64,000 nucleotides of DNA, from contig WFMF01000052.1 in assembly GCA_011033025.1 (NCBI GenBank), forward strand, positions 186,001 through 250,000, written 5' to 3'. Below, piece after piece: positions 3,664 through 56,624 of the stretch. Each line of letters starts with the position of its first letter. Position 1 is the first letter of the stretch. Both the position numbers and the translations under genes were made by a program. This DNA comes from Beroe forskalii. Its lineage: Eukaryota; Ctenophora; Nuda; Beroida; Beroidae. A model generated the notes under the pieces. It saw only the letters and a list, made by a program, of their open reading frames with translations, had not been told where the DNA came from and searched no databases.

Positions 3664-5043
3664 ATGGCTGAACATGATGAACAGACTGCACTGACGACTG
3701 GGGAGGCTGAGGTACGAGACATCAATGTTGCATTAGAGAAGGCAGGCTGCGGTCCCGGCACAATCCTGGGCGCAGAAGTGTTCGTGTTAGCAATCGTGGG
3801 ACCCATCCTGAGATGTGAGTGGAACTTGGATTCCTTCTCCTTGACGGCCCTCCAAATGAGCACCAACTTTTCCATGATGTGTTTCACGGGCCTGACTTCC
3901 ACCCTCGGCGACAGGTTTGGTCGCCGTCCGATGGCACTTATCGGAGCAGTAGGGGTCGTTGTCGCAGGCATCCTCTGTACCTTCACCACGGAATACTGGC
4001 AGCTTCTAACCCTCCGGCTCTTGATGGGACTCTTCTTCGGAGTAGGTATTCCTCCTGCGGTGGTTTTAAGTGGGGAGGTCCCGCCCAAACGGTTCAGAGC
4101 TCTTGGGATGTCGGGTTTCTCACTGGCTTGGGGTGTTGGGGTATCCGTCTGTGGGACCATTGCTTACTATAGCATAGAGCCATATGGGTGGAGAGGACTT
4201 TTGCTAGGGACTGTGTTGACCTTTTCACCGGTTATTATTACTCTGGCATGTATCAGGGATTCGCCTAGGTTTTACTTTTACAACGGGGAAAGAGAAAAGG
4301 CAGAGACTACAATAAAAGAGTTGTACAAGATGAACTGTAAAGGTTGTGTTGATATCAAGTTAACCTGCATCGGGATCAGAGAATCACATGAAAGAAAAGG
4401 GCTTATTGCAACGTGCAAAATCTTACAGGAGACCGAAAACGTACAGAATTCTGTGTACATCTTGCTTTTAGGGTTCGCTGGCCAGCTCTGTTACTACCTA
4501 TAATATGCGTACATCATGCCACGACTTCTAAACGAAGGCTACTGCACAGGAGAAACCGTGAAAATCCATCCAGAAGCATCCTGTACATTTGAAAAGAACA
4601 CCCTGGCCAACATTGCAGTGGTTAACCTTGCAGAGCCAGTCGGTCTGATTGTGGGCCTGATTCTCCTGGAATACCAGGGTCGACGGAAGACCTTCATAGG
4701 GGGAGCCCTATTGGTATCTCTCTTTCCCACTGCCACGTATTTCTGTGCGGGTCACGCCTACCTAGTCACCTTTCTCCTCCTCATTTGTGCTCTAAGTGCT
4801 GGATTCGGGATGGCGTCAGTAGTTCTTGTTAACGAGTACATGCCGACAGTCATCAGGTCCTGTATGACATCCATGGAAAGGGTCTTTGCTTGGACAGGAG
4901 CTCTGATTGCCATCTTCGCGGCAGAGTATGCTTTCAATTTCAGTCCACGAATGGCTCTCGGGGTGTTTCAAGTTTCTGCTTTCATGACTTTGGGGTGTTT
5001 GATAATGCTGAAGAAAGAAACAGCAGGTGAGGATCTTGCTTAA
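3664..5043 (+). CDS. SVOP/SV2-like MFS transporter, copy 1, with one in-frame stop
   Basis: Encodes 459 residues of a major-facilitator protein most like SV2-related (SVOP-like) or organic-cation transporters, expected to carry a small solute across a membrane; the substrate cannot be read from sequence. A GDRFGRRP loop (about residues 82-88) is the MFS motif between helices 2 and 3, and YQGRRKT (about residue 335) is its second-half counterpart. Helix-like segments run to a C-terminus just after the last one. The ATG at 3664 is preferred to the GTG at 3607. An acceptor (TTATTCTAG) ends at 3588, so an upstream untranslated exon is likely. The coding part has no introns. TAA at 4501-4503 interrupts the frame; copy 2 lacks exactly these three bases, so this is a 3-nt insertion or a sequence error. 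The first helix looks about 15 residues shorter than in SVOP. The family is sure, the subfamily less so. Confidence 0.8.
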
Positions 5044-5708
5044 GGGACATTGAGTGATAATGATAGCTGACGACGAAGTTTAAAAGATCTCAGTAAACTC
5101 GTAGCTTATACTTTTGGAGTTTTGGGACATGATGCTTTTGAGAACTCTAGCAATGGCCTCACGAACTCCTAAAGCCTTCTTTGGTATCCAAGGAAGTTGA
5201 TTTTACAACTTATGTCTAAGTTATTTTATTATTTTATTTCTAAAACTTTATTATTTTGTTTCTAAAGAGTTCAAAGTAATTTTATCATTAATTCTGGAAT
5301 TGATGAGACACTATGGAGTTAATAGTACGCTAGATAATTCAAAAATTCTTTTGGATCCTAATGGTTTCAATGATCTGATTAGTGACGAATCATGACATTT
5401 TCAACCAGTATCCAAGCAGCCCAATCATATCTGGATGCATATTAAGCCATTGGACGGTTGGTGTAGTAAACCCCCAGGATATTTGGATGTGGTAAGTACA
5501 TTTTGTCGCCTTTAGGATTCCTGTTGCCACATCCAACCCCGCGGGAGTTACTAGACCTACTCGCGGGGTAGCAATATTATACTATAGGTCGAAGGAGGAA
5601 CCGCTCATTTTCAGATCACCGAGTTTGTATGTGTGACTACAGGCAGGGTGAATAAAAAATCGAAGGAGGAACCTAATTGTAATATCATGAAGCTTTTTTC
5701 TCCAATCC
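5044..5708 (+). other. 3' flank of transporter copy 1, probably 3' UTR
   Basis: This non-coding stretch was duplicated together with the coding part, since the same sequence follows copy 2. A candidate polyadenylation signal AATAAA lies at 5651-5656; the matching place in copy 2 reads AATTAGA. The homology between copies stops at about 5708, after AGCTTTTTTCTCCAATCC. Confidence 0.5.
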
Positions 5709-7991: not shown

Positions 7992-9166
7992 ACTTTTCCA
8001 TGATGTGTTTCACGGGCCTGACTTCCACCCTCGGCGACAGGTTTGGTCGCCGTCCGATGGCACTTATCGGAGCAGTAGGGGTCGTTGTCGCAGGCATCCT
8101 CTGCGCCTTCACCACGGAATACTGGCAGCTTCTAACCCTCCGGCTCTTGATGGGACTCTTCTTCGGAGTAGGTATTCCTCCTGCGGTGGTTTTAAGTGGG
8201 GAGGTCCCGCCCAAACGGTTCAGAGCTCTTGGGATGTCGGGTTTCTCACTGGCTTGGGGTGTTGGGGTATCCGTCTGTGGGACCATTGCTTACTATAGCA
8301 TAGAGCCATATGGGTGGAGAGGACTTTGCTAGGGACTGTGTTGACCTTTTCACCGGTTATTATTACTCTGGCATGTATCAGGGATTCGCCTAGGTTTTAC
8401 TTTTTACAACGGGGAAAGAGAAAAGGCAGAGACTACAATAAAAGAGTTGTACAAGATGAACTGTAAAGGTTGTGTTGATATCAAGTTAACCTGCATCGGG
8501 ATCAGAGAATCACATGAAAGAAAAGGGCTTATTGCAACGTGCAAAATCTTACAGGAGACCGAAAACGTACAGAATTCTGTGTACATCTTGCTTTTAGGGT
8601 TCGCTGGCCAGCTCTGTTACTACCTATATGCGTACATCATGCCACGACTTCTAAACGAAGGCTACTGCACAGGAGAAACCGTGAAAATCCATCCAGAAGC
8701 ATCCTGTACATTTGAAAAGAACACCCTGGCCAACATTGCAGTGGTTAACCTTGCAGAGCCAGTCGGTCTGATTGTGGGCCTGATTCTCCTAGAATACCAG
8801 GGTCGACGGAAGACCTTCATAGGGGGAGCCCTATTGGTATCTCTCTTTCCCACTGCCACGTATTTCTGTGCGGGTCACGCCTACCTAGTCACCTTCCTCC
8901 TCCTGATTTGTGCTCTAAGTGCTGGATTCGGGATGGCGTCAGTAGTTCTTGTTAACGAGTACATGCCTACAGTCATCAGGTCCTGTATGACATCCATGGA
9001 AAGGGTCTTTGCTTGGACAGGAGCTCTGATTGCCATCTTTGCGGCAGAGTATGCTTTCAATTTCAGTCCACGAATGGCTCTCGGGGTGTTTCAAGTTTCT
9101 GCTTTCATGACTTTGGGGTGTTTGATAATGCTGAAGAAAGAAACAGCAGGTGAAGATCTTGCTTGA
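7992..9166 (+). pseudogene. SVOP-like MFS transporter, copy 2, 5'-truncated
   Basis: This block matches copy 1 from its position 3866 onward with only scattered substitutions, so the duplication is recent. It begins inside the coding region at ...NFSMM, without the first roughly 67 residues and without the upstream acceptor. GDRFGRRP and YQGRRKT are intact. Compared with copy 1 one T is missing near 8325 (GGACTTTGC against GGACTTTTGC) and one T is extra near 8402, so about 75 bases are read out of frame before the frame is restored. The ORF then runs to TGA at 9164-9166. The 3-nt insertion that makes a stop in copy 1 is absent. Unless an upstream exon is supplied from elsewhere this copy is probably non-functional. 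Both frameshifts are in T runs and could be sequencing errors. Confidence 0.75.
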
Positions 9167-9811
9167 GGGACATTGAGTGATAATGATAGCTGACGACGAA
9201 GTATAAAAGACCTCAGTAAACTCGTAGCTTATACTTTTGGAGTTTTGGGACATTATGCTTTTGAGAACTCTAGCAATGGCCTCACGAACTCCTAAAGCCC
9301 TCTTTGGTACCCAATGAAGTTGATTTTACAACTTATGTCTAAGTTATTTCATTGTTTTATTTCTAAAACTTTATTATTTTGTTTCTAAAGAGTTCAAAGT
9401 AATTTTATCATTAATTCTGGAATTGATGAGACACTATGATATGGAGTTAATAGTACGCTAGATAATTCAAAAATTCTTTTGGATCCTAATGGTTTCAATG
9501 ATCTGATTAGTGACGAATCATGACATTTTCAACCAGTATCCAAGCAGCCCAATCATATCTGGATGCATATTAAGCCATTGGACGGTTGGTGTAGTAAACC
9601 CCCAGGATATTTGGATGTGGTAAGTACATTTTGTCGCCTTTAGGATTCCTGATACCACATCCAACCCCGCAGGAGTTACTAGACCTACTCGCGGGGTAGC
9701 AATATTATACTATAGGTCAAAGGAGGAACGGCTCATTTTCAGATAACCGAGTTTGTATGTGTGACTACAGGCAGGGTGAATTAGAAATCGAGGGAGCTTT
9801 TTCTCCAATCC
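7992..9811 (+). repeat. second copy of a 1.8-kb segmental duplication
   Basis: Direct duplicate of 3866-5708, covering most of the transporter coding region and its 3' flank. The left junction is inside an exon and the right one inside presumed 3' UTR or flanking DNA, so the breakpoints ignore gene structure. Copies lie about 2.3 kb apart in the same orientation. Confidence 0.85.
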
Positions 9812-11373: not shown

Positions 11374-11834
11374 CCTCTTGATCTCCCCTAGATCTCCTCT
11401 AGAGTCTAGATCTTATGTCCCATCTCCGATAATAATAATTGAAAGTTCAATAGCACGTCTTTCGCTAGAACTTACTAGTTTTCTTGCCCGTTTTAGTTAG
11501 CTACTTAGTTTACTCATTTGGTTTGGTGCAGTGGCAATCAGTCCACTGTTTGTTTCTTTGTGTTTCGTTTGAAATCCCTTATCTCACCGTGGGTTTTATA
11601 AAAGAGTTGACGTATTGTCGCAGATCATGTAAATGTCAAATAATATCTTCATTTTATGATCTGATGGCTTTTGATGAATGTAACTTTTCATGAAATAAAA
11701 TGTGTGCAACCTGACAACCATTATACACTCAAATGGTCAGTGAGTACAACCCTTATCTCTTTTTTACCGCCTTCCAGGGTTTTGCTATTTGCATGTTAAT
11801 AGTTTAATATGAGGACAGCAGTGGAATTGCTAAA
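11374..11834. other. intergenic or intronic, no feature seen
   Basis: AT-rich stretch with no convincing coding segment. A 69-codon frame at 11484-11693 has no splice context or motif. Confidence 0.4.
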
Positions 11835-12002
11835 CCAATCAGATGTCTGCATTAGAGTCACGTGACCAAGACTACGCCAATCAGATGTCTGCATTAGGGC
11901 CACGTGACCAAGACTACGCCAATCAGATGTCTGCATTAGGGCCACGTGACCAAGACTACACCAATCAGATATCTGTATTTTGGTCGCGTTATCACCAAAC
12001 AG
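11835..12002 (+). promoter_or_regulatory. 42-bp tandem array with CCAAT boxes and E-boxes
   Basis: CCAATCAGAT begins at 11835, 11877, 11919 and 11961, an exact 42-bp period. The first three units also contain CACGTG (once as TCACGTGA, twice as CCACGTGACC); the fourth has a degraded form. CCAAT is the NF-Y site and CACGTG the USF/MITF-TFEB/Myc-type E-box, a common pair in animal promoters. The array lies about 440 bp upstream of the first methionine of the deacetylase gene, so it is a candidate promoter element. A minisatellite that happens to contain these words is the alternative. Confidence 0.45.
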
Positions 12003-12438
12003 TGATCGACACGTGACTGTTATCTGCATGCTACCTGCTGTCGGGTGTTCAATGTTCATCCATTAATCGAGGTTTGTCCCGCCTCTTTTGTTCCTAAAAA
12101 TTTCTGCATTTGAGTTTTAACAACGTATTAAGCTGCATCTAATTTCAATCAATTTGATTTTAATTTCGAAAGATTTTACTTATATTTACTGTAAATGAAA
12201 TATTTCATGTAACTAGCATAGCGATTTCACATGCTGTTTCAACCCAATAGCAGAGTATTCAAAATTGTTACTTTATTTTAACTTTCTTCTTCTAGCCGTT
12301 AATAATTATGGATAACGAACGTAAAATAACTAAAAGTGAAATCAATCATTAACAAATAGATAAAGATCAATTAGATATTTATTAACATACCCCTATTAAA
12401 TACATTGATTAACTACATAACATAATCTTATCCCACAG

Positions 12439-15400
12439 ATGTCTATCGAACTACTTATCGGCTTTATGCTCCTGATCGCACTGATCATTGTGGTTGCCGC
12501 AGGTAAGAACAACTTCACAATTATACAATTGTTGCTGTAGTCGGTGATGAATTCTATATTTGTATATTTCGTGACTATAATTATATCATGATTATGAACG
12601 AGTTCTCGGAAATTGAATATTTTGCGGATTGTTCTATTGGCATTTCTTATGTGCGGACAGATAGATTAAAGTATAAACGTACAAATTTGATGTTCACACC
12701 GAAACGCCTTGTGCCAACAATTAAAATTTAAAAGATTAAATATAAATACCTATGTGATTGCTGACATTTGCCATTCCAGGACTTACATTATGCGCATCTT
12801 TCTAAACTTAGGTAATTGCTGCACGATCGATGAAATCGATTAAAAAATCTACAAAAAATCTACAAATGTCGATTAAAAACGATTGATTTCTAACTCTCCT
12901 CAGTTGTGACCCGGAGGATGCGGCGGGTGTCGCCAGAGCTGGTGGCTCTGCTGCCCCCAGGAGCAGGAGTGAGGGACCACCCTTACCGGAGGCCCCGCAA
13001 GCGCATCCAGGGTGAGTCTTGTTGGTTACTGTGAGTTGTTAGTTACTGCGCTGTTTACTGTTATAGTTTCTGTTAGTTCTTACTATAATTTGCTGTTAGC
13101 TGTTACCTACTGCGCTAGTTACTGCTAGTTCTTTAGTTGCTACCTTATCGGACATAATCATCACGGACCTCTAATTTCACGGACATTAATATTCACGCTC
13201 GATCCTGCCATTTCAAATTTCAAGAAAATCTCGAAATTTTCGGTTCCATTTTTTCCACGATTTAAATACTTGATTTCAATATTTATTCAATATATTTCGT
13301 TAATTAATATGATAAATTTCCATATTGCAGGTTCTAAGCATAAAAAAGAAGTATAATTTCCTTAAAAATTTTATTATTGCGTTTAAAGAGAAAGTTAGAA
13401 ATTTTGCGTCTCTACCCTAGAAATTTTAAGAGGAAATACCGGACTTAATTTTTACGGACCTGAAAATCACGGACATTAGTATCTCGGACAAAATTTTCAC
13501 GGACATTAATATTCACGCTGATGTGCTCAGCGTGAATTTAATGTCCGTGATAATTATGTCCGATAAGGTATTTACTATTAGTTACTGTCCGTTGTTAGTA
13601 ATTACTGCGCTGTTAGTTTCTGCGACTTCTTACTAAAAGCTCTCAGTTACTGTTAGCTGTTAGTGTTACTGTTGGTTAATGTAAGTTGTTAGCGCCAGTT
13701 ACTGGTAGTTGTTAGTTTAACTGCAAGTTGTTAGCATAGATTCTTCCCCCCCCCCTAAGAAAAGAGGTGTGATGAAGATTTTGGCCAAATAAGGTAGGTG
13801 GGGGAGAGTTTGCCCCAATTTCAATTCTTCTGGGGGGACTGGAACAGAAGAGGGGAGTGAACAAATTAACAGGGGGATAGGGATCTTGCAAAGAAACTTC
13901 CAAATTTGAGATGAAAATCCTGTCTCCGCGGAACCATCTCTCTCCGACCCTCTTGCTTCTTGGGACCGCGCCCCAAGTTCCCCGCCCCCTTTTGTAAGAC
14001 TGGAATATCACTGTGACGCTTCAAGTCCGTGCCTTTTTTATAGTTTATCAGCTTAACAAATATGTATCTATGTTTTTACATGTGTGACAATTAGGGGGGG
14101 GGGGGAATCAAGCCATATTTTTTGGAAAACACGTTTCTGAGACCCAAAAGGAATGCCCCGTGGGCCAACTTTTTGGCCAGGTTTGGTTCCCCAGACCCAC
14201 TGGCGCCAAAAGCGCCAAAATTTTGGCAAAATTTTGGCGCTTTTGGCGCCAAAAAATTTGAAGGCCTAACTCAAAAATCCGGCTCCATTTGTTTCTGCGG
14301 AATTTAGTCTAGTTTCACGTAAAAAAAGAATTGTGCAAAAATATCAATCGTAGCCAAGTTATTAGCCTTTCAGTGCACGGACCTAAAACTTCAAGGATAT
14401 CAATATTCACACTCGATCCTTCCACTTCAAATTTCAGCAAAAATTCGAAATTTGAACACTGGAATTGAAAATTTTTCGTTAATCAAATTTAATATGATAA
14501 ATTTCCATATTGCGGGTCTAAGCATGAAAAAGAAATATAATTTCCTTAAAAATTTTATTATTTGTGCGTTTAAAGAGATGAATCAGAAATTTTGCGTCCC
14601 TACCCTAGAACTAAAAGAGGAATTACCGGACTAAATTTTAAGAGGAATTACCGGACTAAATTTTCATGGACATTAATATTCGCGCTGAGGTGCTCAGCGT
14701 GACTACTGACTGTTATGTCCGTGATAATTATGTCCAATACGGCAGGAATTATTCCTAAATTACTGTCACCATTAACCCCCTCCCTCAGGAATTATTACCA
14801 AACTGTCACCTTTTAACAATAACCGCCCCCATGAATTATTCTCAAACCGTCACCATTATAAAAAAAACCCTATTCTCAGGAACCCCTATTCCCAGGAATT
14901 ATTCCCGAACTATCACCAAAAATTATTCCCGAACTATCACCATTTACCCTTCCCCAAGAATTATTTCCTAACTGTCACCATTAAAAAACCCTCCCCCAGG
15001 GATTATTTCCAAACTGTCACAATTATTATTAACCCCCTCCGCCAGGAATTATTCCTAAACTGTCACCATTAACCCTCTACCTAGGAATTATTCCCAAACT
15101 GAATCATGATTCATGAATCCGCCTCTCCCAGGAATCATTCCCAAACTAACACCAATAGCCCCTCTCCACAGGGATGCAGCGGGTCCGGACAGTAGTGTCC
15201 TTCGACCTCGGCACCCTCCTGCACGAGGGGGACATGACGGAGCAGGAGAGGCCCGCCAGGGTCAAGGCGACGCTGGCTCGCCTCAAGGAGACGGGCACCA
15301 TGGCCCGCATGCATTTCGTGCGCGGGCGCGAGTGCACCCAGAGCGAGGTAGGGTGACTGGATTTCGATAACTAGTGAACATGAATAGTTCTCTTAAATTA

Positions 15401-18400
15401 AAGAAATGACATAAATGTTCTTGAGTCATGTCTATCGATTTCATTGCTCGAATAATTCATTGAAGTGAGGTATTTGTAAATCATACTCTCTTTGTACCCT
15501 TTCTTCCCCCCCCCCCCCCCCCCCCTCGAACTAACACCCCCTTCAGGCACTGACCGTGCACACCCCTCGCTACTGGAAGCTGCTCGAGAGCTCCTCTGTG
15601 TTGAGTGAGGCCGAGTGCCGGGAGCTGGTGGTGAGGGAGATCAAGGACAGCGACAGCATCTACCTCAACCGGTATGAGAAACAACGTTTAATGAGAAACA
15701 ACGTTTAATAAATTTTTCGGCACTTTACAATCAAATCATATCAAAATATATTTATAGATATTAATGATAGGCTACCCTTCAGTGTAAAGATTTGTTTCAC
15801 AAGATTACATTTTCACGTTCAGAAATGTCACATGTGGAGTTGGTGTGCCCGAATCAGCTAATTTTACAACAGACTGTTTTTGAATATCAATTTCAAGCGC
15901 CAATTTCATTTCAGGTACTCGTTCCGCGCCGCCAGGCTGGCGGTCGGGTGCCTCCTCAACGTCATGGAGGAGGTGCTCTCGAGCAGAGTAAGTAACTAAT
16001 TACGTAATAATCAGTTAATTAACATCACAATAAATTCTTTACCACTTTTCAAAAGATTTTGATTTTCACGAAGATTTTACAAGTTCATTGGACAATGGAT
16101 ATCATTGCTATAGCAAGGCGTCTCTCCATCAATCATGCCACCAAATTCTCAAATTCAGGCTTGTTTTTCTACTTGTTTTTTCTGCTCATATCAAAGCCCT
16201 TATTTAACAATGTGAAATGTTTCAGGCCACTAACGGCGTGGCCGTGATCCGGCCTCCGGGCCACCACGCCGTGGAGACGGAGGCCATGGGCTTCTGCCTG
16301 CTGGGCAACGTGCCCATCGCCTGCCACAAGGCCTTCGAGGCCAACTACGAGAGGTGAGTTGATAGTCTCTTTCCTCTCCACTATGCTCCTTAGTGGAGCA
16401 TAATGGAGCATAACTAAGTGGAGCATAACTAATATTCATTAGTTATTTTATTTCGTCGTATACCCATACACCTTTATTACTTTTATAGAATATAAGACTT
16501 TGGATTAAATGATTCACTGCCTGTTTTAGGAATGAGGGATGCTATGCAAATAAAAAACTGACAGCTGCTCATGTCAGTATATTCTTGAAAAAGAAATCTT
16601 GAAATTTAAAAGGCTAAAAAGATTCTTATCACCTCTTAAAATTTTAAGAACAATACAGGATGATTGTTAATAGTTTCTACTCAATAATGCAATCAAATCA
16701 CTGTAATGGAATAACTCGGATGATTAATGTTGTTTATTTGTTAGTTGTTTATTGGATGCTAACCTTTGCCTCCGCAGGATCCTAGTGGTGGATTGGGATA
16801 TTCACCATGGAAACGGGACGCAGGACATGTTCCTGCGGGACCCCCGGGTCCTCTATATCTCAATCCACCGCTGGGATCACGGGGACTTCTACCCCGCCAC
16901 GGGGACGCCGCTGACGGTGGGGGACGGAGCCGGCGCTGGCTTCACGATCAATGTGGGCTGGAACCAGGCAAGTAGTCTCTGGCGAGTTATTTCGTAACCC
17001 AGTAACCTAGTAACCCAGTGTCCCAGTAACCTAGTAGCCTAGTAACCTAGTAGCCAAGTAACCTAGTAACCTAGTCAACTAGTAACCTAGTAACCTAGTA
17101 GCCCAGTAACCCAGTAACCTAGTAACCCAGTAACCCATTAACCCAGTAACCTAGTAACCTAGTAACCTAGTAACCCCGTAACCTAGTAACCAAGTAGCCA
17201 AGTAACCCAGTAACCTAGTAACCCAGTAACCTAGTAACCCATTAACCCAGTAACCTAGTAACCCAGTAACCCAGTAACCCATTAACCCAGTAACCAAGTT
17301 ACCTAGTAACCTAGTAATCTAGTGTTCTAGTAACCCAGTAACCTAGTAACCTTGTAACCCAGTAACCTTTTAACCTTGTAACCCAGTAATCTAGTAACCC
17401 AGTAACCTAGTAACCCAGTAACCTAATAACCCAGTAACCTAGTAAAATAGGTAGTAACCTAGTTACCAAGTAACCCAGTAACATAGTTACCTAGTTACCT
17501 AGTTACCTAGTAACCTAGTTACCTAGTAACCCAGTAACCCATTAACCCAGTAACCTAGTAACCTAGTAACCCAGTAACCTAGTAACCCAGTAACCTAGTA
17601 ACCCAGTAACCTATTACCCCCCTGCAGGCGCGGATGGGGGACGCGGAGTACCTCCGCTGCTTCCAGGAGCTGGTCCTCCCCGTGGCCAGAGAGTTCCAGC
17701 CCCAGCTGACGGTGATCAGCGCCGGCTTCGACTCTGGTGCCGGAGATCCCCTCGTAAGTGATGGTGATAACTTTAGAGTAATTACCCCTCTAATGAGTAA
17801 TAACCCTCTAATGAGTAAGGAGTAATTTATACCAAATGATAATGCAATAATCCCTCCAATTTGTGGATGGCAAAACTACTGACACCTGTATTCCCACTGA
17901 TAGAATCTGGGATTAAACCCTTGGGACAACCCCTAAGAATCTTGGAATGCTTATTGACAACACCCTACGGTTAACAATTATACTAATACCGCCCCTAAAT
18001 TCCAGGGCAGATGCTGTGTCTCTTCCTCCTGCTATGGGAAGATGACCACCTGGCTGATGGGGGTCTCCGGGGGCAGGGTCATCGTGGCTCTGGAGGTAAT
18101 TTCTCTATTTCTTAGCTCACAGTTAAAGGCATTTGTGATTGAACATTTGATGAAATGCAAAATTGTCAAAAATGATTGTTGAGACGATTTTTTTGGATAT
18201 AACTAAAATGGAGGACCTCTTTCACTTCTTAAAACTGATTGCACCTAATTTGCTCATGTAAGTCTAACAGTAACTCAGCTTGTACTCCTATTCCAGGGTG
18301 GGTACAACCTGAGGACTGTGGCGGAGGGCATGGAGGCATGCAGCAGGGCGCTCCTGGGCGAGCAGACCAGGTGCTCGCCCAAGAAGAATCCAGCGGCGGG

Positions 18401-21400
18401 GTAAGTGTTACTTAGGGAGCAAGTTGCTAAGCAACAAGCAGCTAGGTTGCTAAGCAACCCCTGCCCAGGCAGGGTAAGTGTTACTTAGGGAGCAAGTTGA
18501 AAACATCTTTTAATGATGCGAGAAAGTTTGAAAATCAGGAGCTTCCGAATAGCATGTGCTTACTAAGTTACTAGTCGTATTTAAGTGTTGTATTTAAGTG
18601 TTGGTTATTGAGCTGAACCAATCAGACACTAGTCACGAGCTTTTTAAGTCGGAGTTCAGTGACAAATCGACTGTGATTTAAAGTCAAATTACAAATGGCA
18701 TAATCGAAGTTTATTAACGTATGAACCATGATGTAGCTTATATGGTTTAAAATTCTTTAAGTTAATTGAGTCACAAACTTTCAGGGCACTGGAGAGCATC
18801 GGGGAGACGCGAAGGATTGTCTCCCCATTCTGGAACAGTCTCCAGGATCAAGGTGAGTCAAGAAACCCCGCAAGTAGGGACAAATCATGAGCTAATCACA
18901 AATCATGGAAAAAAGATTAATATGAAGTAAAAGGTTGTAACACCTGTAACTTAGTAAAAGGGACAGAAAGCTTGGCAGTAATAGCTGATTTGTAATGGTC
19001 TAACCTAACAGAGTAACAGGCAGAGATTTTCTAACTGGTACACCATAAGACCATACCTTATCGGAAATAATTATCACGGACTTTAGTTTCACGGACATAA
19101 GATTTCACGCTCGATCCAGCGACTTCAAATTTCAACAAAAATTTTCTTCCACGATTTGAATATTTGAATTGAAGATTTTTTTAAATAATTTTTGCTCATT
19201 TAAATGTTAAATTTTCATATTGCAGGTACTAAGCATCAAAAAGAAGTATTTTTTCCTTAAAAAGTTTATCATTTGTTAATTTAAAGAGATGAAGTCAGAA
19301 ATTTTGCGACTTGCGTCTGTACCATAGAAATTTTAAGAGGAAATACCGGACTTAATTTTCACGGACCTGAAAATCACGGACATTAATATCACGGACGAAA
19401 TTTTCACAGACATTAATATTCACGCTGAGGTGCTCAGCGTGAATGTAATGTCCGTGATAATTATGTCCGATAAGACGATAAGGTAATATCCAAACATTCA
19501 AGCATTTATGTATTTTAATATAACTTAAATTAGGAAACTTCAACTTAAGAGACATCATAAACGGAAGTGAACTTCAAACATTATTCTCTTTGGACTTTGA
19601 GTTACTAATTATTTAACCTTGATTTGATTAAGCTGAGTCTAATTCAGGCATTATTTCAGGGGAAGAACAGTTAAAGTGCAGTGTGGCTGGGTGTGACTAC
19701 AGCACCAAACTCAGGGCGAATATGGACCTACACGCTCAGACACACTGTGGTATGTAACTATGTGCTTATGTAGGAAATAAATTCTCGAGAGTAGTACATT
19801 TTACAATCAAAACGCGACGTAACTCAACGCGACAACCAAAACAAGAATTGCGCCCGTTACCCATCTGCGGGCGCTTAATTTCCCTCCCCCGAGCTTGAAG
19901 AAGATATTAATAGAAACGTGCAATTCTATATAATGCATGTGGGACGTAGGCAGCTTCGAGTTCGATCCACGTTGATGAGCTTTTAAACAACGCAATTGAA
20001 TTACTTCGCGAAGTTATTTGAAAACTCCGCGGTAGTTTGCCATGGTTTTCACGGTTGAACTTGGAGCAACTAGCATTGATGATTCAATTTCATGATACGC
20101 AATTTCATGATACAGTAATTTGTTTTTTTTTTCATCAATTTAATCAGAAATAGGACGATAGGTGGTTGCAAACATCTTCAATTGTAACAATTAAAACGTC
20201 GTGTTCTTGTGATATATTTCAATGAATATATCATTCATCATCAACATTCTGATCATTAAAACGGAAGTGAACATATTCAAATCATTATTCTTATCTTAAT
20301 TTAAATTAAATAATTAAATTAACATTGATTTGAATAATACTGAGTCTAATACGATAATCATTATTTCAATATACATTATACAATATGCAGTGTGGCTGGG
20401 TGTGACTAATAGCACCAAACTCAGGGCAATTATTTACCTTTAGCTAATTCAAGACTGTGGTATGAATAACTATGTGTTGCGTGTGTTCAAATAAACTTCT
20501 CAGAATAGTACATCTTAGACCCGTTCTAGAATGATTATTGAGGGCTATAGCTCGAGCTATAGCTCGAGCAAATTGACGAAGAAATCCCTATTCTACACAC
20601 CATAATTTGTTTTTCCACCATAAATTGTTCAAAATTGCTCGAATTTCAAACATTGGTAAAGTGTTGACTCAGCGCTTGAATTTTCGTTAGAAATTTGATA
20701 GGCTAACTAAAGCTTAACTTGAGCGCGCCACGCATGATGTTGAGCCGCAGCGCCGCGCACAAAACTGCTCGATAATATCCATCCCTAATCTTGCGGGTGA
20801 AAGCGCGCAATTGCACTTGCTATTGTTACGCGACTCCGCTTTGGTACCATTGTTGACAGTATCTCCCTCAAATATGAGGACATCTCCCTCAAATTTGCGG
20901 ACATCTCCCTCAAAATTTTGTGGACATATCTCCCTCGGACTTTCCGGGCACTTTCCGAAATTACAGTAGTTGTATTGCAAATCTGGACCTGCTATGCAAA
21001 TATCCTATTTCTCACCTTCCCAAACACGATCTCTGCTAACCCTCTCATTTGCCTTTTTGTATTCACAAAAAGGTCAATGGGGAGGGGAAAATGTAGCCGG
21101 ATGTCATTTTGATACGGATGCTTGGTTAAAAGTAAAACTAAAATATCAGTTGCATTTCCTATTTTAGGATGTTAGATCTCATCACAAGCAATCTGTATAA
21201 ACTCTGGTAGAGCAGGATTAATGTTTGGAATATTTCAGCTCAGAACCAGAGGATGTGGGCATGTGACGATTGCTCCTTCTCAACAGCAAAAGAGAAAACG
21301 CTGAAGAGTCACATGCTCACCCACAAGAGGGGGGTAGCCTCGTCAGACGAGCCGCGGTCACACGCAGGTGAGCATTTTATGAACTCATAACCCATATTAT

Positions 21401-22221
21401 GTGTCAGTGTGCACATGCATCGATCGATGAAGGGATTGATAAAGACGCGCATTTTACAGTCTGTGCAGTTTAATATTTATACATTAATAGGAATAGGATT
21501 TCTGTCGAAATTTACGTGTTTTTTCGATTGATCCATATGCACACATAATATGGGTCGTGCCTAGGATAAAGCATAAAATACGCAGACCTGCGCCAATTAT
21601 CAGTTCCATTTTGGGATACTTTCCGAAGGCGTTGCCCGAGGGATGTATCCGGTTTAAAGCCGCAGGCCAAAGGGCAATGGTTGAAACCAATATAGAAACT
21701 GATGAAAGGGTCGAAGGACTCTATAAGTATATAAATATATTATGAATATTTAAGTCCATTCAACAGAAATTTTTGCGATTATTTAATTGCTGTAACGTTC
21801 ATAACAACCCAGGGAGCCAAACAGAACACCAGTACGAGTGTGACATCTGTGGCGCCGTCCTCAGCGACCAAAGCAATCTGCGGCGCCACAAGAACCGTCA
21901 CACTCGTGAGCTCCCGTACGCGTGTGGCCGCTGCGGAAAGAGGTTCAACGACCGCAGTAACATGAAGCGGCATGAGCAACATTCATGCAAAGGTATGAGC
22001 TATTGCAAGCCATTTTATTGGTATCATGTTGTGGTGGCTCTGAGTCTGACAAAAATGACTACTAAGCAGGAGTACTATATTAGTATATTTACCCTGTGCA
22101 ACTGGCACTGTACTACTGGTTAAAATCTGAATGATCAATGAATCTGAGGATGATGGCACATAATTCTTGAACTAATATTTAACTAATTCTTAAATTAATA
22201 TTCCTTTCAGGATCTGCATGA
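12439..22221 (+). CDS. HDAC6-like deacetylase joined to four C2H2 zinc fingers (15 exons, 553 aa)
   Basis: Coding exons read by eye: 12439-12502, 12904-13011, 15172-15347, 15547-15671, 15915-15987, 16226-16353, 16778-16967, 17628-17753, 18006-18095, 18297-18400, 18785-18852, 19660-19749, 21239-21367, 21813-21992, 22211-22221. All junctions are GT-AG except a GC donor at 16968, every phase agrees, and the exons sum to 1662 nt with a final TGA. Residues 4-23 are a hydrophobic segment followed by RRMRR, a possible membrane anchor with the rest in the cytosol. Residues about 70-417 are a class IIb deacetylase domain closest to HDAC6, which removes acetyl groups from lysines of tubulin and other proteins. 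Residues 424-549 hold four C2H2 fingers. HDAC6 normally ends in a different finger (ZnF-UBP), so this architecture is unusual. The deacetylase call is firm; whether the first exon and the finger exons share one transcript is inferred from phase only. Confidence 0.8.
13141..13570. mobile_element. MITE family M1, copy 1, in deacetylase intron 2
   Basis: Starts TACCTTATCGGACATAAT and ends with the inverted ATTATGTCCGATAAGGTA, giving terminal repeats of about 28 bp. Internal words CACGGACATTAATATTCACG and a GTGCTCAGCGTGAA hairpin recur. TA at each end may be the target duplication, as in Tc1/mariner-type elements. It has no coding capacity. Further copies are at about 14376-14744 and 19054-19485. 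Confidence 0.75.
13733..14115. mobile_element. shorter relative of the 10646-11373 element
   Basis: Begins GCATAGATTCTTCCCCCCC and follows the same order of words as the left part of the element at 10646 (GATGAAGATTTTGG, CCCCAATTTCAATTCTTCTG, GGGGGGACT, GATGAAAATCCT, a GGGACCGCGCCCCAAG hairpin). It ends near a G run followed by AATCAAGCC. It lies inside deacetylase intron 2. Confidence 0.55.
14202..14250. repeat. 49-bp near-perfect palindrome
   Basis: GGCGCCAAAAGCGCCAAAAT pairs with its exact complement on the right over 24 bases, with one unpaired base in the middle. As RNA this would be a very stable hairpin inside a deacetylase intron. No larger element with these ends was recognised. Confidence 0.85.
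14376..14744. mobile_element. MITE family M1, copy 2, decayed left end
   Basis: Shares CACGGACCT, ATATTCACACTCGATCCTTC, GAGGTGCTCAGCGTGA and GTCCGTGATAATTATGTCC with the copy at 13141, but its outer left terminal repeat is missing. It is in the same intron of the deacetylase gene. Confidence 0.65.
14745..15162. repeat. minisatellite before deacetylase exon 3
   Basis: About eight to ten irregular repeats of a phrase like CAGGAATTATTCCCAAACTG followed by TCACCATTAACCC(CCTCC). Unit length varies between roughly 40 and 50 bp. The array runs almost to the exon 3 acceptor at 15171 and appears to supply its pyrimidine tract. Confidence 0.75.
15506..15525 (+). repeat. 20-base C run in intron 3
   Basis: A pure homopolymer just upstream of the acceptor of deacetylase exon 4. 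It may serve as part of the pyrimidine tract. The true length is uncertain because such runs are error-prone. Confidence 0.8.
16986..17620. repeat. GTAACCTA/GTAACCCA minisatellite filling a GC-AG intron
   Basis: More than 60 copies of a 10-bp word AGTAACCYAG or close variants fill nearly the whole intron between deacetylase exons 7 and 8. Every unit has a CAG or TAG, so dozens of acceptor-like dinucleotides precede the real acceptor CCCCCCTGCAG at 17627. The intron starts with the rare GC donor (CAG|GCAAGT). Confidence 0.9.
18398..18500 (+). repeat. direct repeat that duplicates a splice donor
   Basis: GGGTAAGTGTTACTTAGGGA and the next bases occur at 18398 and again at 18471, about 73 bp apart. 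The first copy is the donor of deacetylase exon 10, the second an equally good donor. Use of the second would add 73 bases, change the frame and disturb the downstream reading. A GTTGCTAAGCAAC palindrome lies between the copies. Confidence 0.7.
19054..19485. mobile_element. MITE family M1, copy 3, in the intron before the finger exons
   Basis: Left end TACCTTATCGGAAATAATTA and inverted right end ending GATAAGGTA at 19485; interior words are the same as at 13141. The right end has a short internal duplication (GATAAGACGATAAGG). It sits between the last deacetylase exon and the first zinc-finger exon. Confidence 0.72.
19835..21083 (+). mobile_element. element family E, copy 1 (Helitron-like ends?), about 1.25 kb
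   Basis: The left end has AACAAGAATTGCGCC and GCGCTTAATTTCCCTCCCCC, and the right end has GCCTTTTTGTATTCACAAAAA (a hairpin) followed by GTCAATGGGGAGGG. The same two ends, in the same order, bound the inserts at 27715-28667 and (inverted) 34016-34922, while the interiors differ. Variable interiors between constant ends, a 3' hairpin and a captured gene fragment are typical of non-autonomous Helitrons, but the canonical TC and CTRR ends were not seen, so the class is open. The interior holds a decayed zinc-finger exon copy and tandem ACATCTCCCTCAAA repeats at about 20867-20945. Confidence 0.55.
20256..20515 (+). pseudogene. decayed copy of zinc-finger exon 12 with flanking intron
   Basis: GTGTGGCTGGGTGTGACTA, AGCACCAAACTCAGGGC and ACTGTGGTATG here match the real exon at 19660-19749 and its donor. 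Intron words on both sides (ACGGAAGTGAAC, CTGAGTCTAAT, ATAGTACAT) match 19558-19805 too. Small insertions of A/T-rich bases break the finger: the HxxxH part is lost and the frame is open only in pieces. The acceptor is not preserved. It lies within element E copy 1. Confidence 0.75.
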
Positions 22222-22832
22222 ACCCCCCTCTGACCCCCTCTGGTTCCGGTCCCCTTGATCGGTCTTCACCCTGAGCCTGGAACAAAAGCCTGGAACAGAA
22301 CCCGACCCCACAACCTCACACAACTTGTGCCCACCCCTGCTGAGCCACCAGCTGCCGATTTGACCTGTACCCACCCGAGGATGGAGACACCTCCCCCAAC
22401 CTGAACACCTCCCGGATTGACATAGACCTGCCCTTCTTCCCGAGCCAGGAAGCCAACCTGTGCCCACCCAGCCTGTGTACGGGTATACACAGTCTAAGGT
22501 ATACACAGTCTAAGGTGTTAAAGCATCCATTATATTTCTTGTTGTACATAGAGTCTACAACCAGGCAGGGACTCAGTCTGTAGGATACGAGAAACAGACT
22601 ATTTCAAAGTGTTTTCGTCATCGTAATTAACCACTATACCCAATCAAACTACACTCATTATGAGATTATGTTTGTCACCGTCGAATCTTCAAATCGACAT
22701 CCACTTGCACCGATTCCAAATTAAACTTGATTTCGGCTCAACGCGCATACGATATAACTGATGACGAACTCCCCCCACCCATGACGGAAATATAAACAAA
22801 GTCCTCAAAGAGTAAAATTTGAACACGACTAG
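22222..22832. other. 3' UTR and spacer between deacetylase and Sox genes
   Basis: 22222-22500 is C-rich on the + strand and is open over long stretches of the minus strand, but no motif or splice site supports a gene; it is best read as 3' UTR. An ATTAAA near 22722 is a weak polyadenylation candidate. No HMG-box first half (MNAFMVW) was found here, although it would be expected upstream of the Sox exons. Confidence 0.45.
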
Positions 22833-24483
22833 CCATTGTCGATCTCAGTTAAACACTGGGCAAACTCTGGAGGATGCTCAGTGAGACGGACAAGCACCCT
22901 TACATCAAGGTACTGAAGTAACTACACTGATCCTACACTTGATTTCATCTGATTGTCAGATGATGAATTCTTATTACTTAAATCTGGTGTTTTCTCCCGT
23001 AAAATTATAGCCATCAGCTTCTGATAGTAATCATAGTAATACCCGTCATTTTCTCTCAGGAATCGGAACGGCTGCGTATGATCCACAAGAAGCAGCATCC
23101 AGAGTACAAGTACCGGCCTAAGAAGAGGAAACACCTCAAGAGACCCACGGAAAGACTGCCCCATGAGATTGAGAACCTCGCCAAACGGGCCTTGCTCAAC
23201 CCTGACCATGACTTCACTGCCAATACCCGAGCTCTTATTTCTCAGCAGGTATGGGTCTGAATATCGGTGTTTTCAATTTCAGTGGTATCTTGCTTTGAAT
23301 GCACATTGATGGACAAAATTCGTCAAATTAATTTTCCATTTGATGAACTGTTCACTCCTTCATTTAGTCGCCTAACGACAGACCCCTCCCTTCAGAACGC
23401 GTGTGTGTCCCCAGACAGCACCACTCCTCCTTCCCCTCTAACAACTCCTCCCCCACCCTGCCCTCTGATGGACTGGTTTCAAGTCTTAGTTCCTGTACTG
23501 CTGAACCACCCAGGGTCTACCTGGCTTCCGAGGCTTCCAACGCTTACTGCTCCACTTCCTCTGTTCTTGCGGGGTGAGTAAAGAGAGACTTCATTTAATT
23601 ATTCATCAAATTGAGTATCAAATTGAGCACGAGAATTTCCATTTTCAAAGTGTCAACCATCACATCAAATTCATGTTTGACTCTTGTATTTGCCCAAACT
23701 AACCCTCACTTCCTTGTAGGTACATGCGGTCCACTGAGCCCATCTACCGAGGGCCGCCTCTTCCTCCCCACCCTCTTGTGAGCAGCACAGGCAGCAGCTG
23801 CTTGTTTCCCACCTCCTCCACCTACCTCCCCTTCCCCTGCAGAGCTCCCCCCTACGAGAACCCACCCCTTGTCAAGGTGGAGCACAAGTCCTTCTATCCT
23901 GGCGGACCTGTTCAGGTGCGTTAAAAGTGAGAAATATTGCAGTGGGGAGACAAGAAATTTTAAATCTTTAAATCATCATTCAAAAAACTTATTGAATTTG
24001 AGATTTAAGATGATTGATGGGAATTTCAGATTTAATTACGATGATTTAATGGGTCATTTTGGCCAAAAACAACTTAGATTTACGTCATTTTTTATCTAAT
24101 CTAATCTAATCTAATCTATATTTCTGTGATTTAAAGTTATTTTCTTGACTATAATATAGATTTTTTCAGCAGACCTCTATTACGTCTCCCGGATCGTACC
24201 CTCACAAAACGAGCGCCTCTTCCTCGCCCCAAACCCCCTCCACCTCCACCCCTCCCCTGCCTCCCGGGATCCTAACGCGCACGTGGAGAATATCACGCGT
24301 GAGATGCCGCGCGCCCTGGTGACGTCACCACCCTCCTCGCCGCACGATCAGAGCAAGCTGGTGATAGACGCCCTCTCGTCCCTCAACGATATCAAGGACA
24401 TAGACGTGAACGAGTTTGACATGTACCTGCCGAGGGAGGGAGGCCAGCAGCAGCAGCACAGCAGCTGCAGTTCTAAGTCATGA
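22833..24483 (+). CDS. Sox-family (SoxF-like) transcription factor, 3' part, damaged or mis-sequenced
   Basis: Exons read: about 22833-22909, 23060-23248, 23368-23573, 23720-23915, 24170-24483. The first two encode the second half of an HMG box (TLGKLWRMLSETDKHPYIK, then ESERLRMIHKK and PEYKYRPKKRK), the DNA-binding domain of Sox factors. The rest is Ser/Pro-rich, ending DIDVNEFDMYLP, which resembles the conserved EFDQYL motif of SoxF proteins (Sox7/17/18). Three oddities: the first HMG half is not in the window; the codon before TLGKLW, a lysine in relatives (LSKTLG), is TAA at 22850; the phase-0 acceptor at 24169 opens a Ser/Pro-rich frame that stops early, while the EFDMYL tail is in another frame, as if one base were lost near 24240-24270. 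It may be a pseudogene or an assembly error; family call good, SoxF moderately sure. Confidence 0.72.
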
Positions 24484-54627: not shown

Positions 54628-56624
54628 TTTTTGGATCCTTTTAATTTTAGAAATTAAAAGGGGTTTTTTTTAAAAATTTTGGTTTAAAATTTGAAAGGGG
54701 GTTAAAATTTTTTGGTATAAAGATCATTTTTGGGTTTGTCATTTTGGAAAAGGGGTCTGGGAAAAATTTTTTTTTTGTAGGGCATAAAAAAAAGAAAAAA
54801 AGGAAAGGGGGTTTTTTAAATTTTTGTGAAAGGCAAAAAAATTTCGCTTTTTTGTTGGGCAAAGTAAAAATTTTTTTGAATTAAAAATTAATGGAAATTT
54901 TCCCCCGGGGGAAAAAAAAAAAATTAGGTTTTTGGTTGGAATTTTTTAAAAATTTTTTTTTTCATTGGGGGAAATTTGGGAAAAAAAAGTTTTTTTTTTT
55001 GGGGTTTTTACATTGGGCAAAATATTTTGGGTAAAATTTGGGGGGGAAAAGGTGGAAATTTAAAATTTGGGGAAAATTTTTTTTGGAAAATGTGCTTTTT
55101 TTGGAAGGTAATTTGTGGGACCCCCGGTCTTAAAAATTCAAAAGAAGGGGATTTTGGAAATTTCTTAAAAAAATTTAAAATTTTTTGGATTTTTAAAAAA
55201 ATTTTTTTTTATTTTTTTTTTGGACAATAAAAAAAGTCCTTTTTGGCAAAGGGGGGTTTTAGGGGTTTTAAAAAAAATGAAAATTTTTGAAAAAAGGGTT
55301 TCTTTTTTCCTGCTGAAAAATTTTTTTTTTTGTGGGAAATTGACAAATTAAAAAAAACTTTTTTTTCTTGGAAATTTGGTTTTTTTTTTTTTTTCTTGGA
55401 AGGGGAAAAAAAAAATTTTGCCTTTTTTGGTTTTTGGCTTGAAAGCATTTTAAACCAAATTTTTTGGGGAAATTAAAAAAAAGGGCCCCTTTTAAAGAGC
55501 ATTTTCTTTTGGTTTTTCTGGGGGCCCCGGGTTCGAATTTTGGTGGGGCCCCTTAAAAAATTTAAAAAAAGGTTGAAAGGGCTTTGGTTTTAAAAATTTT
55601 TTTTTGAAATTTAAAGGGATTTTGGGGGGTTTTTTAAAGGAAAAATTTTTTTTTTTTTAAAAGGGGGTTAAATTCCCCCAATTTTTTTTAAAAAACAATT
55701 TTTTCTTTTTTTTGGAAGGGTTTTTGGGGGGGAAAATTTTTGGGTTTTTTTTTGGGGGGGGGGAAAAAAAATTTTTTTTAAGGGGGTTTTTTTTGGGGTT
55801 TTTTTTTTTTTGGGGGGGGGGCCAAAAAAACCCTTTAAAATTTTGGGGTTTTTCTTTTGGGGGGGGGTTGGGAAAAAGGGGCCGGTTTTAAAAAAATTTT
55901 TGGCCCGGGGTTTTAGGGCCCAAAGGGGGCCATTTAAAGGGGTTTTTTTTTTGGGGGCCCAAATTTTTTTTTTTTGGTTGTAGGGTTTTTGGGGGGGAAA
56001 AATTTAAAAAAAAAAACAAGGGAAAATTTTAAAAAAAAGGGAAAAAATTTTTTTGGTTTCTTGGCCCCCTTTTTTGGGGGGGGTTTTTTTTTTTTGGGTT
56101 TTTTTTTAAAAAAAAGGGGGGGGGGTTTTTTTTAAAACCCCCGGGGTTTTAAAAATTTTTTTTTGGGGGTTTTTTTTCCCCAATTGGTTTTGGGGGTTTT
56201 AATTAAAAGTTGGGGAAAAAAAAAAAATTTTTTTTTTTTTTAATTTGGGAAAATGTTGGGTTTTTTTTGGGGGGGGAAAAAAGGGGGGGGGAAAAAATTT
56301 TTTTTAAAAAATTTTTTTTTTGGGGGGGTTTTTTTTTTTTGGGTTTTTTTTTGGGGGGGGGTTTTTTAAAAATTTAAAAATTTTTTTTTTTTGGAATTTT
56401 TACAAATTTCCCTTTTTTTTAAAAGGGGGGAAAAAAAAAAAAAAAAAATTAAAAAATTTTGGGGGAAAAAAAGGAAAAAAAAAAAATTTTTTAATTTTTT
56501 TTTTGGTTTTTCTTTTTGGGGTTTTTTTTGGGGGGTTTTGGGGGTTTTTTAAAAATTTTTTTTAAGGGGGGTTTTTGGGGGAAAGGGGGTTTTTAAAAAT
56601 TTAAAAAAATTTTTAAGGAAAAAA
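54628..56624. other. homopolymer-rich, probably corrupt satellite consensus
   Basis: About 2 kb made almost only of runs such as GGGGGTTTTTTTT and AAAAATTTTTT, with very few C and CG. Around 55215-55300 the order TTGGACAAT, AAAAGTCC, TTTTTGGCAAA, GGGGTTTT, ATGAAAATTTTTGAAA follows the satellite order. The apparent open frames (Phe/Lys/Gly-rich) are meaningless. Confidence 0.7.

Follow-up and report, generated by a model that had tools for sequence, protein, structure and literature searches.

What does a single reading frame encode when it runs from a lysine deacetylase into a set of zinc fingers: one protein, or two neighbours that only appear joined? The question is raised by positions 12439-22221 (+) of a 64,000-nucleotide stretch of Beroe forskalii contig WFMF01000052.1, which is referred to here as the window. 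A sequence-only reading had described fifteen exons with phase-keeping borders, one of them GC-AG, and 554 codons including the stop, and rebuilding from the raw sequence confirmed both the coordinates and the count: the joined exons give 1,662 nt, that is, 553 amino acids and a stop, without any internal stop, while the other two frames, read after splicing, are interrupted by 21 and 8 stops. The explanation favoured here, with a confidence somewhat above even, is one gene for a class II lysine deacetylase, predicted to be membrane-held, whose C-terminal part carries four zinc fingers on symmetric exons.

The joined frame, the domains, the catalytic residues and the exon phases can be read directly from the DNA. 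Pfam finds one complete Hist_deacetyl domain (PF00850) at residues 82-378, covering profile positions 2-297 of 298 with E = 1.2e-87, and C2H2 fingers beyond residue 420 (zf-C2H2, E = 5.7e-14); because of these E-values the matches are not a matter of chance. The frame crosses 14 introns, 13 of them GT-AG and one GC-AG (after 16967), and the introns are AT-rich compared with the GC-rich exons. Judged from these letters, the locus is a well-formed, animal-type protein-coding gene of an animal-like eukaryote, and the union of deacetylase and fingers is predicted to be a probable real chimeric gene. Splice sites were ranked with a generic splice-site table over 11500-23000, a region with 611 GT sites; acceptor ranks are out of 645. 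The features are as follows.

Exon 1, 12439..12502, + strand: transmembrane-like start; donor ranks 4 of 611 GT sites.
Exon 2, 12904..13011, + strand: two basic patches, RRMRR and YRRPRKR; the ATG at 12918 (Met27), with A at -3, is an alternative start.
Exon 3, 15172..15347, + strand: the deacetylase domain begins; L1 loop EQ where HDAC6 has HP.
Exon 4, 15547..15671, + strand: deacetylase (rebuilt frame, Pfam).
Exon 5, 15915..15987, + strand: deacetylase (rebuilt frame, Pfam).
Exon 6, 16226..16353, + strand: deacetylase; catalytic H195/H196 in RPPGHHA.
Exon 7, 16778..16967, + strand: deacetylase; zinc ligands D232 and H234; the GC-AG intron follows.
Exon 8, 17628..17753, + strand: deacetylase; zinc ligand D323 and gatekeeper L330.
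Exon 9, 18006..18095, + strand: deacetylase (rebuilt frame, Pfam).
Exon 10, 18297..18400, + strand: deacetylase; catalytic Y363.
Exon 11, 18785..18852, + strand: last helix of the deacetylase domain, whose end agrees with HDAC6; donor ranks 1 of 611.
Intron 11, 18853..19659, + strand: separates enzyme and fingers; half taken up by a 420-bp repeat (19054-19474).
Exon 12, 19660..19749, + strand: finger 1, phase 1-1.
Decayed exon 12 duplicate, about 20385-20450, + strand: in intron 12, flanking intron included; acceptor lost, frameshift and stops.
Exon 13, 21239..21367, + strand: finger 2, phase 1-1.
Exon 14, 21813..21992, + strand: fingers 3 and 4 with TRELPY linker, phase 1-1.
Exon 15, 22211..22221, + strand: GSA and stop only; opens in phase 1.
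ATTAAA, 22720..22725, + strand: candidate polyadenylation signal of the gene, the earliest such signal 3' of the stop codon.

Repeats occur within and beside this gene. An 8-base unit (GTAACCTA) recurs about 78 times at 16994-17613, inside the intron with the GC-AG borders, and the units are similar to splice-site motifs (CAG, GTAA). The repeat in intron 11 is one of three copies of an element of about 420 bp (13141-13567, 14390-14739 and 19054-19474) with inverted ends (CTTATCGGACATAATTATCACGGAC), resembling a miniature inverted-repeat transposable element. Just 5' of the gene, at 11835-11979, a 42-bp unit is repeated 3.5 times, each with CACGTGACC, and may represent a repeat close to the promoter that carries E-box-like sites.

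The enzyme half carries the zinc ligands D232, H234 and D323, the catalytic His pair H195/H196 and Y363, all at the positions given by the sequence-only reading. Alignment with HDAC references shows that the pocket residues S153, F205 and L330 are kept as well; their HDAC6 equivalents are S531, F583 and the Leu gatekeeper L712, while the F643 position of HDAC6 is Tyr here. In a phmmer search against solved structures (PDB), the two catalytic domains of HDAC6 rank best, followed by HDAC4, HDA15, HDA1 and HDAC10. Identity is 46% to the second deacetylase domain (DD2) of human HDAC6 and 41% to the first (DD1); for HDAC4 it is 46% in a shorter alignment of 256 columns. FastTree joins the domain weakly to HDAC4 (0.51) and IQ-TREE gives nearby supports of 49-61, both in small trees with six references. 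No second deacetylase copy was found in the window by tblastn, Pfam reports a single Hist_deacetyl stretch in the protein, and the protein has no Pfam match to zf-UBP but zf-C2H2 instead. A Glu gatekeeper marks HDAC10, a polyamine deacetylase, and Lys-gated specificity belongs to HDAC6 DD1; the Leu at position 330 therefore argues against an HDAC10-like polyamine deacetylase and against Lys-gated DD1 specificity.

How the domain should be named follows from comparison with its nearest relatives. HDAC6 is its best match in the PDB and has the same zinc ligands, His pair and catalytic Tyr, with the Leu gatekeeper in DD2, whereas HDAC6 has two deacetylase domains and a ZnF-UBP, and this protein has one domain, C2H2 fingers and a transmembrane-like N-terminus; it also differs in the L1 loop (EQ for HP) and in the Tyr in place of F643. 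With class IIa HDAC4/7 it shares the identity to HDAC4, a short loop after the FxP motif and the weak tree grouping, but vertebrate class IIa HDAC4 has His for the catalytic Tyr, insertions and a long N-terminal regulatory region. Here Y363 is present, the insertions are absent, and about 60 residues precede the domain, with no long regulatory region. With HDAC10 it has in common the class II fold and about 40% identity in the C-terminal half, but HDAC10 has a Glu gatekeeper and a second pseudo-domain, and this protein has L330 and no pseudo-domain. By its residues the enzyme is best called a catalytically complete, single-domain class II deacetylase. The description as HDAC6-like thus holds for the nearest phmmer match, and the name HDAC6 is withheld because the protein has one deacetylase domain, lacks a ZnF-UBP and takes no stable position in the small trees.

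The fingers are less uniform than had been described. Finger 1 (C-X4-C-X12-H-X3-H) occupies the whole of exon 12, fingers 2 and 3 read C-X2-C-X12-H-X3-H, and the pattern C-X2-4-C-X12-H-X3-5-H is found in fingers 1-3 with all ligands intact. Finger 4 ends in H-X2-H or H-X4-C, which is not canonical C2H2, and by its spacing is probably a C2HC finger; the statement that all finger ligands are present therefore stands for the first three fingers only. The linker of fingers 3 and 4, TRELPY, is near the classical TGEKPY, and this pair resembles DNA-binding finger pairs in solved structures. Both of these fingers have identical contact residues D, S, N and R, from which the textbook recognition code would give, as a guess, a target core of about GACGAC. 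About 20 residues lie between fingers 2 and 3, and the array is therefore not one continuous DNA-reading rod.

The other end of the protein, which starts MSIELLIG, holds a feature missed by the sequence-only reading. Exon 1 reaches a peak hydropathy of 2.94 over 19 residues, and the positive stretch VVTRRMRR of exon 2 comes directly after the hydrophobic helix, so that the predicted product of exons 1 and 2 has the pattern of a signal anchor, a hydrophobic helix of about 20 residues with a positive flank on one side. Of the 752 open stretches in the window that start with ATG, exon 1 is the most hydrophobic and the only one to reach a hydropathy of 2.8. Chance AT-rich sequence was considered as an explanation of exon 1 and rejected on account of this outlying value. 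Apart from that of exon 1, no strong phase-1 donor from 9.8 to 12.9 kb has an ATG in frame with it. A probable N-terminal membrane anchor is predicted, and the positive residues beyond the helix suggest that enzyme and fingers would lie on the cytosol or nucleoplasm side.

The union of the two halves turns on the junction from 18852 to 19660, which is in phase 1 on either side. Exon 11 contains no stop, and its end coincides with that of the catalytic domain; it is expected to splice onward because its donor is nonetheless the best of the 611. A polyadenylation signal within intron 11 was rejected, as neither AATAAA nor ATTAAA is found in 18853-19659; the next such signal is AATAAA at 19776, past exon 12. 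A separate first exon and promoter for the fingers in the same interval had been named by the sequence-only reading as evidence to look for against a single gene, and among coding exons that start with ATG there, none has a phase-1 donor with a score above 3. The top exon 11 donor, together with the lack of an intron 11 polyadenylation signal or alternative first coding exon, favours one transcription unit, and by this sequence evidence one gene is better supported than two.

Several points weigh against a single membrane-held, finger-bearing enzyme. The GC content at third codon positions (GC3) drops from 0.89 in the deacetylase exons (3-10) to 0.67 in the finger exons (12-14), with Fisher p = 1.3e-7. 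The halves therefore differ in compositional history, which speaks against a long-united gene; for the neighbouring genes GC3 is 0.65 (SOX-like) and 0.56 (SLC22-like). The acceptor of exon 12 is moderate (rank 44 of 645), and those of exons 11 and 13 are weak (145 and 126); exon 6, which is certain by homology, has a still weaker one (230 of 645). The start context of the exon 1 ATG is weak (C at -3) and that of Met27 at 12918 is better (A at -3). Lastly, DNA targeting is hard to square with a membrane anchor, except in a protein that gets to the inner nuclear membrane.

The strong compositional contrast is one ground for two same-strand neighbours, in which the deacetylase would end near 18852 and a zinc finger gene would begin in intron 11. 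The finger exons on their own resemble an ordinary zinc finger gene, exons 12 and 13 contain in-frame Met codons, and the fingers may have a non-coding first exon. This arrangement is nevertheless judged unlikely: exon 11 lacks a stop and has the best donor of the region, no polyadenylation signal precedes 19776, no phase-1 first coding exon lies in intron 11, and exon 12 opens in the correct phase with a finger that fills the whole exon. The GC3 difference itself fits a chimeric origin and two genes equally.

The start context bears on a further reading, a soluble nuclear fusion enzyme, in which translation would begin at Met27, exon 1 would be non-coding and the fingers would guide the enzyme directly to DNA. 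The A at -3, the similarity of YRRPRKR to a nuclear localisation signal and that of fingers 3-4 to DNA-binding pairs speak for it, but the strong donor and the outlying hydrophobic helix make exon 1 an unlikely chance untranslated region, and DNA binding by the fingers is putative; as a full account of the locus it is given a low weight. A second, soluble form from Met27 carrying this basic patch is possible beside the anchored one. The sequence-guided deacetylase that had been proposed earlier keeps its joined frame, its catalytic domain and its finger domain, but is weakened by a class II domain that is not demonstrably an HDAC6, by the probable anchor, and by fingers of which only 3-4 form a classical tandem pair and whose DNA or RNA binding is putative; with the anchor, free nuclear DNA targeting is no longer the default reading.

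The exon phases, likewise overlooked at first, bring in another alternative. Exons 12, 13 and 14 each open and close in phase 1, the trace expected from a finger cassette inserted before an older last exon, and five out of five tested skipping combinations that retain exon 15 stay in frame. If all three were skipped, a 420-residue finger-less enzyme ending SLQDQGSA* would result, a form that is predicted as possible. Read-through at the exon 12 donor adds two residues before a stop (HCGM*), the AATAAA at 19776 lies close by, and a one-finger short form is possible by this route. One unit whose main product is finger-less, by skipping of exons 12-14 or by an early end after exon 12, would draw on both features and on exon 15, which with GSA and a stop is as expected of an original last exon. 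It is judged rather improbable: a symmetric phase means that skipping can occur, not that it does, and the intact ligands of fingers 1-3 suggest use. The decayed duplicate of exon 12 is a further feature absent from the earlier description. While that copy decayed, exon 12 itself lost neither its frame nor its splice sites nor any of its four ligands, which suggests selection on the intact copy.

In the favoured reading of one anchored, finger-bearing enzyme, the long product would be held in the membrane by its N-terminal hydrophobic helix, most likely with the N-terminus outside and with the catalytic domain and fingers on the side of the cytosol or nucleoplasm. Fingers 3 and 4, as a pair, would recruit it to a partner, either nucleic acid or protein, at which acetyl groups would be taken off lysines. 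That the gene is transcribed as one unit, how the protein sits in the membrane, which isoforms are made, and what it binds and deacetylates are inferred. A start at Met27 would yield the soluble form with its nuclear localisation-like patch, and skipping of exons 12-14 would yield the finger-less enzyme. A bolder and very doubtful version is an inner-nuclear-membrane deacetylase, placed there by the helix and the basic patch, whose fingers 3-4 would choose the DNA, which would need no corepressor to remove acetyl groups from chromatin at the nuclear edge, and whose finger exons, spliced in or out, would switch targeting.

That the gene is decaying, or is an artefact of assembly or annotation, is highly improbable: the window is rich in repeats and also contains a 100-base gap (54528), a broken copy of an SLC22-like gene and an in-frame stop in a SOX-like exon, but 12439-22221 has no gap or long near-identical duplication, its frame is intact over 14 junctions and all catalytic residues are present. 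Downstream on the same strand, at 22838-23250, lie SOX-like HMG exons that match SOX9 by tblastn over the second half of the HMG box; they contain an in-frame TAA in VDLS*TLGKLW, no first half of the box turned up anywhere in the window, and they are probably a broken copy or a sequence error. Upstream, an SLC22/MFS-type transporter gene is tandemly duplicated at 3866-5668 and 7992-9796 with 98% identity, the second copy lacking a start and having frame breaks. From 25500 to 64000, many copies of one repeat occur on both strands, with a translation that contains CDCLPGSVLEPNNDAFIHRVFPKSN; the sequence at 54900-56600, next to the gap, is of low quality and rich in G/T or A/C.

Similar combinations are found in other systems. 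Plant HD2/HDT deacetylases, as in DoHDT3, are described with a C-terminal C2H2 finger and an N-terminal MEFWG pentapeptide (PMC7747690); they form a separate family, whereas the present protein starts MSIELLIG and has an RPD3/HDA1-type domain and four fingers. DoHDA6 joins an RPD3/HDA1-type domain and a RanBP2-type zinc finger in one protein (PMC7747690), and plant HDA15-type proteins do likewise, but here the fingers are C2H2. A review of HDAC evolution describes as the sole zinc finger that of HDAC6, which binds ubiquitin (PMC7288346). Engineered dCas9-HDAC3 and dCas9-HDAC8 fusions couple a deacetylase to a DNA-targeting module (PMC7736826); these are man-made and Cas9-guided, whereas the finger array here is natural and its DNA binding putative. 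The earlier claim that no deacetylase with C-terminal C2H2 fingers is known has an exception in the unrelated plant HD2 family and otherwise stands in the open-access papers searched, as weak negative evidence. Within the limits of that search the architecture looks unusual, and its novelty is provisional. No relatives of the fingers or of the deacetylase were found in the viral contigs scanned.

Classical deacetylases usually reach chromatin through corepressors or DNA-binding partners. A natural eraser and finger array in one protein would be the evolved counterpart of engineered targeted deacetylases (PMC7736826), and the symmetric finger exons are a candidate case of domain gain by exon shuffling. 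The membrane-like N-terminus raises a second question, that of the enzyme's place of work in the cell, and the probable anchor alters its likely cell biology.

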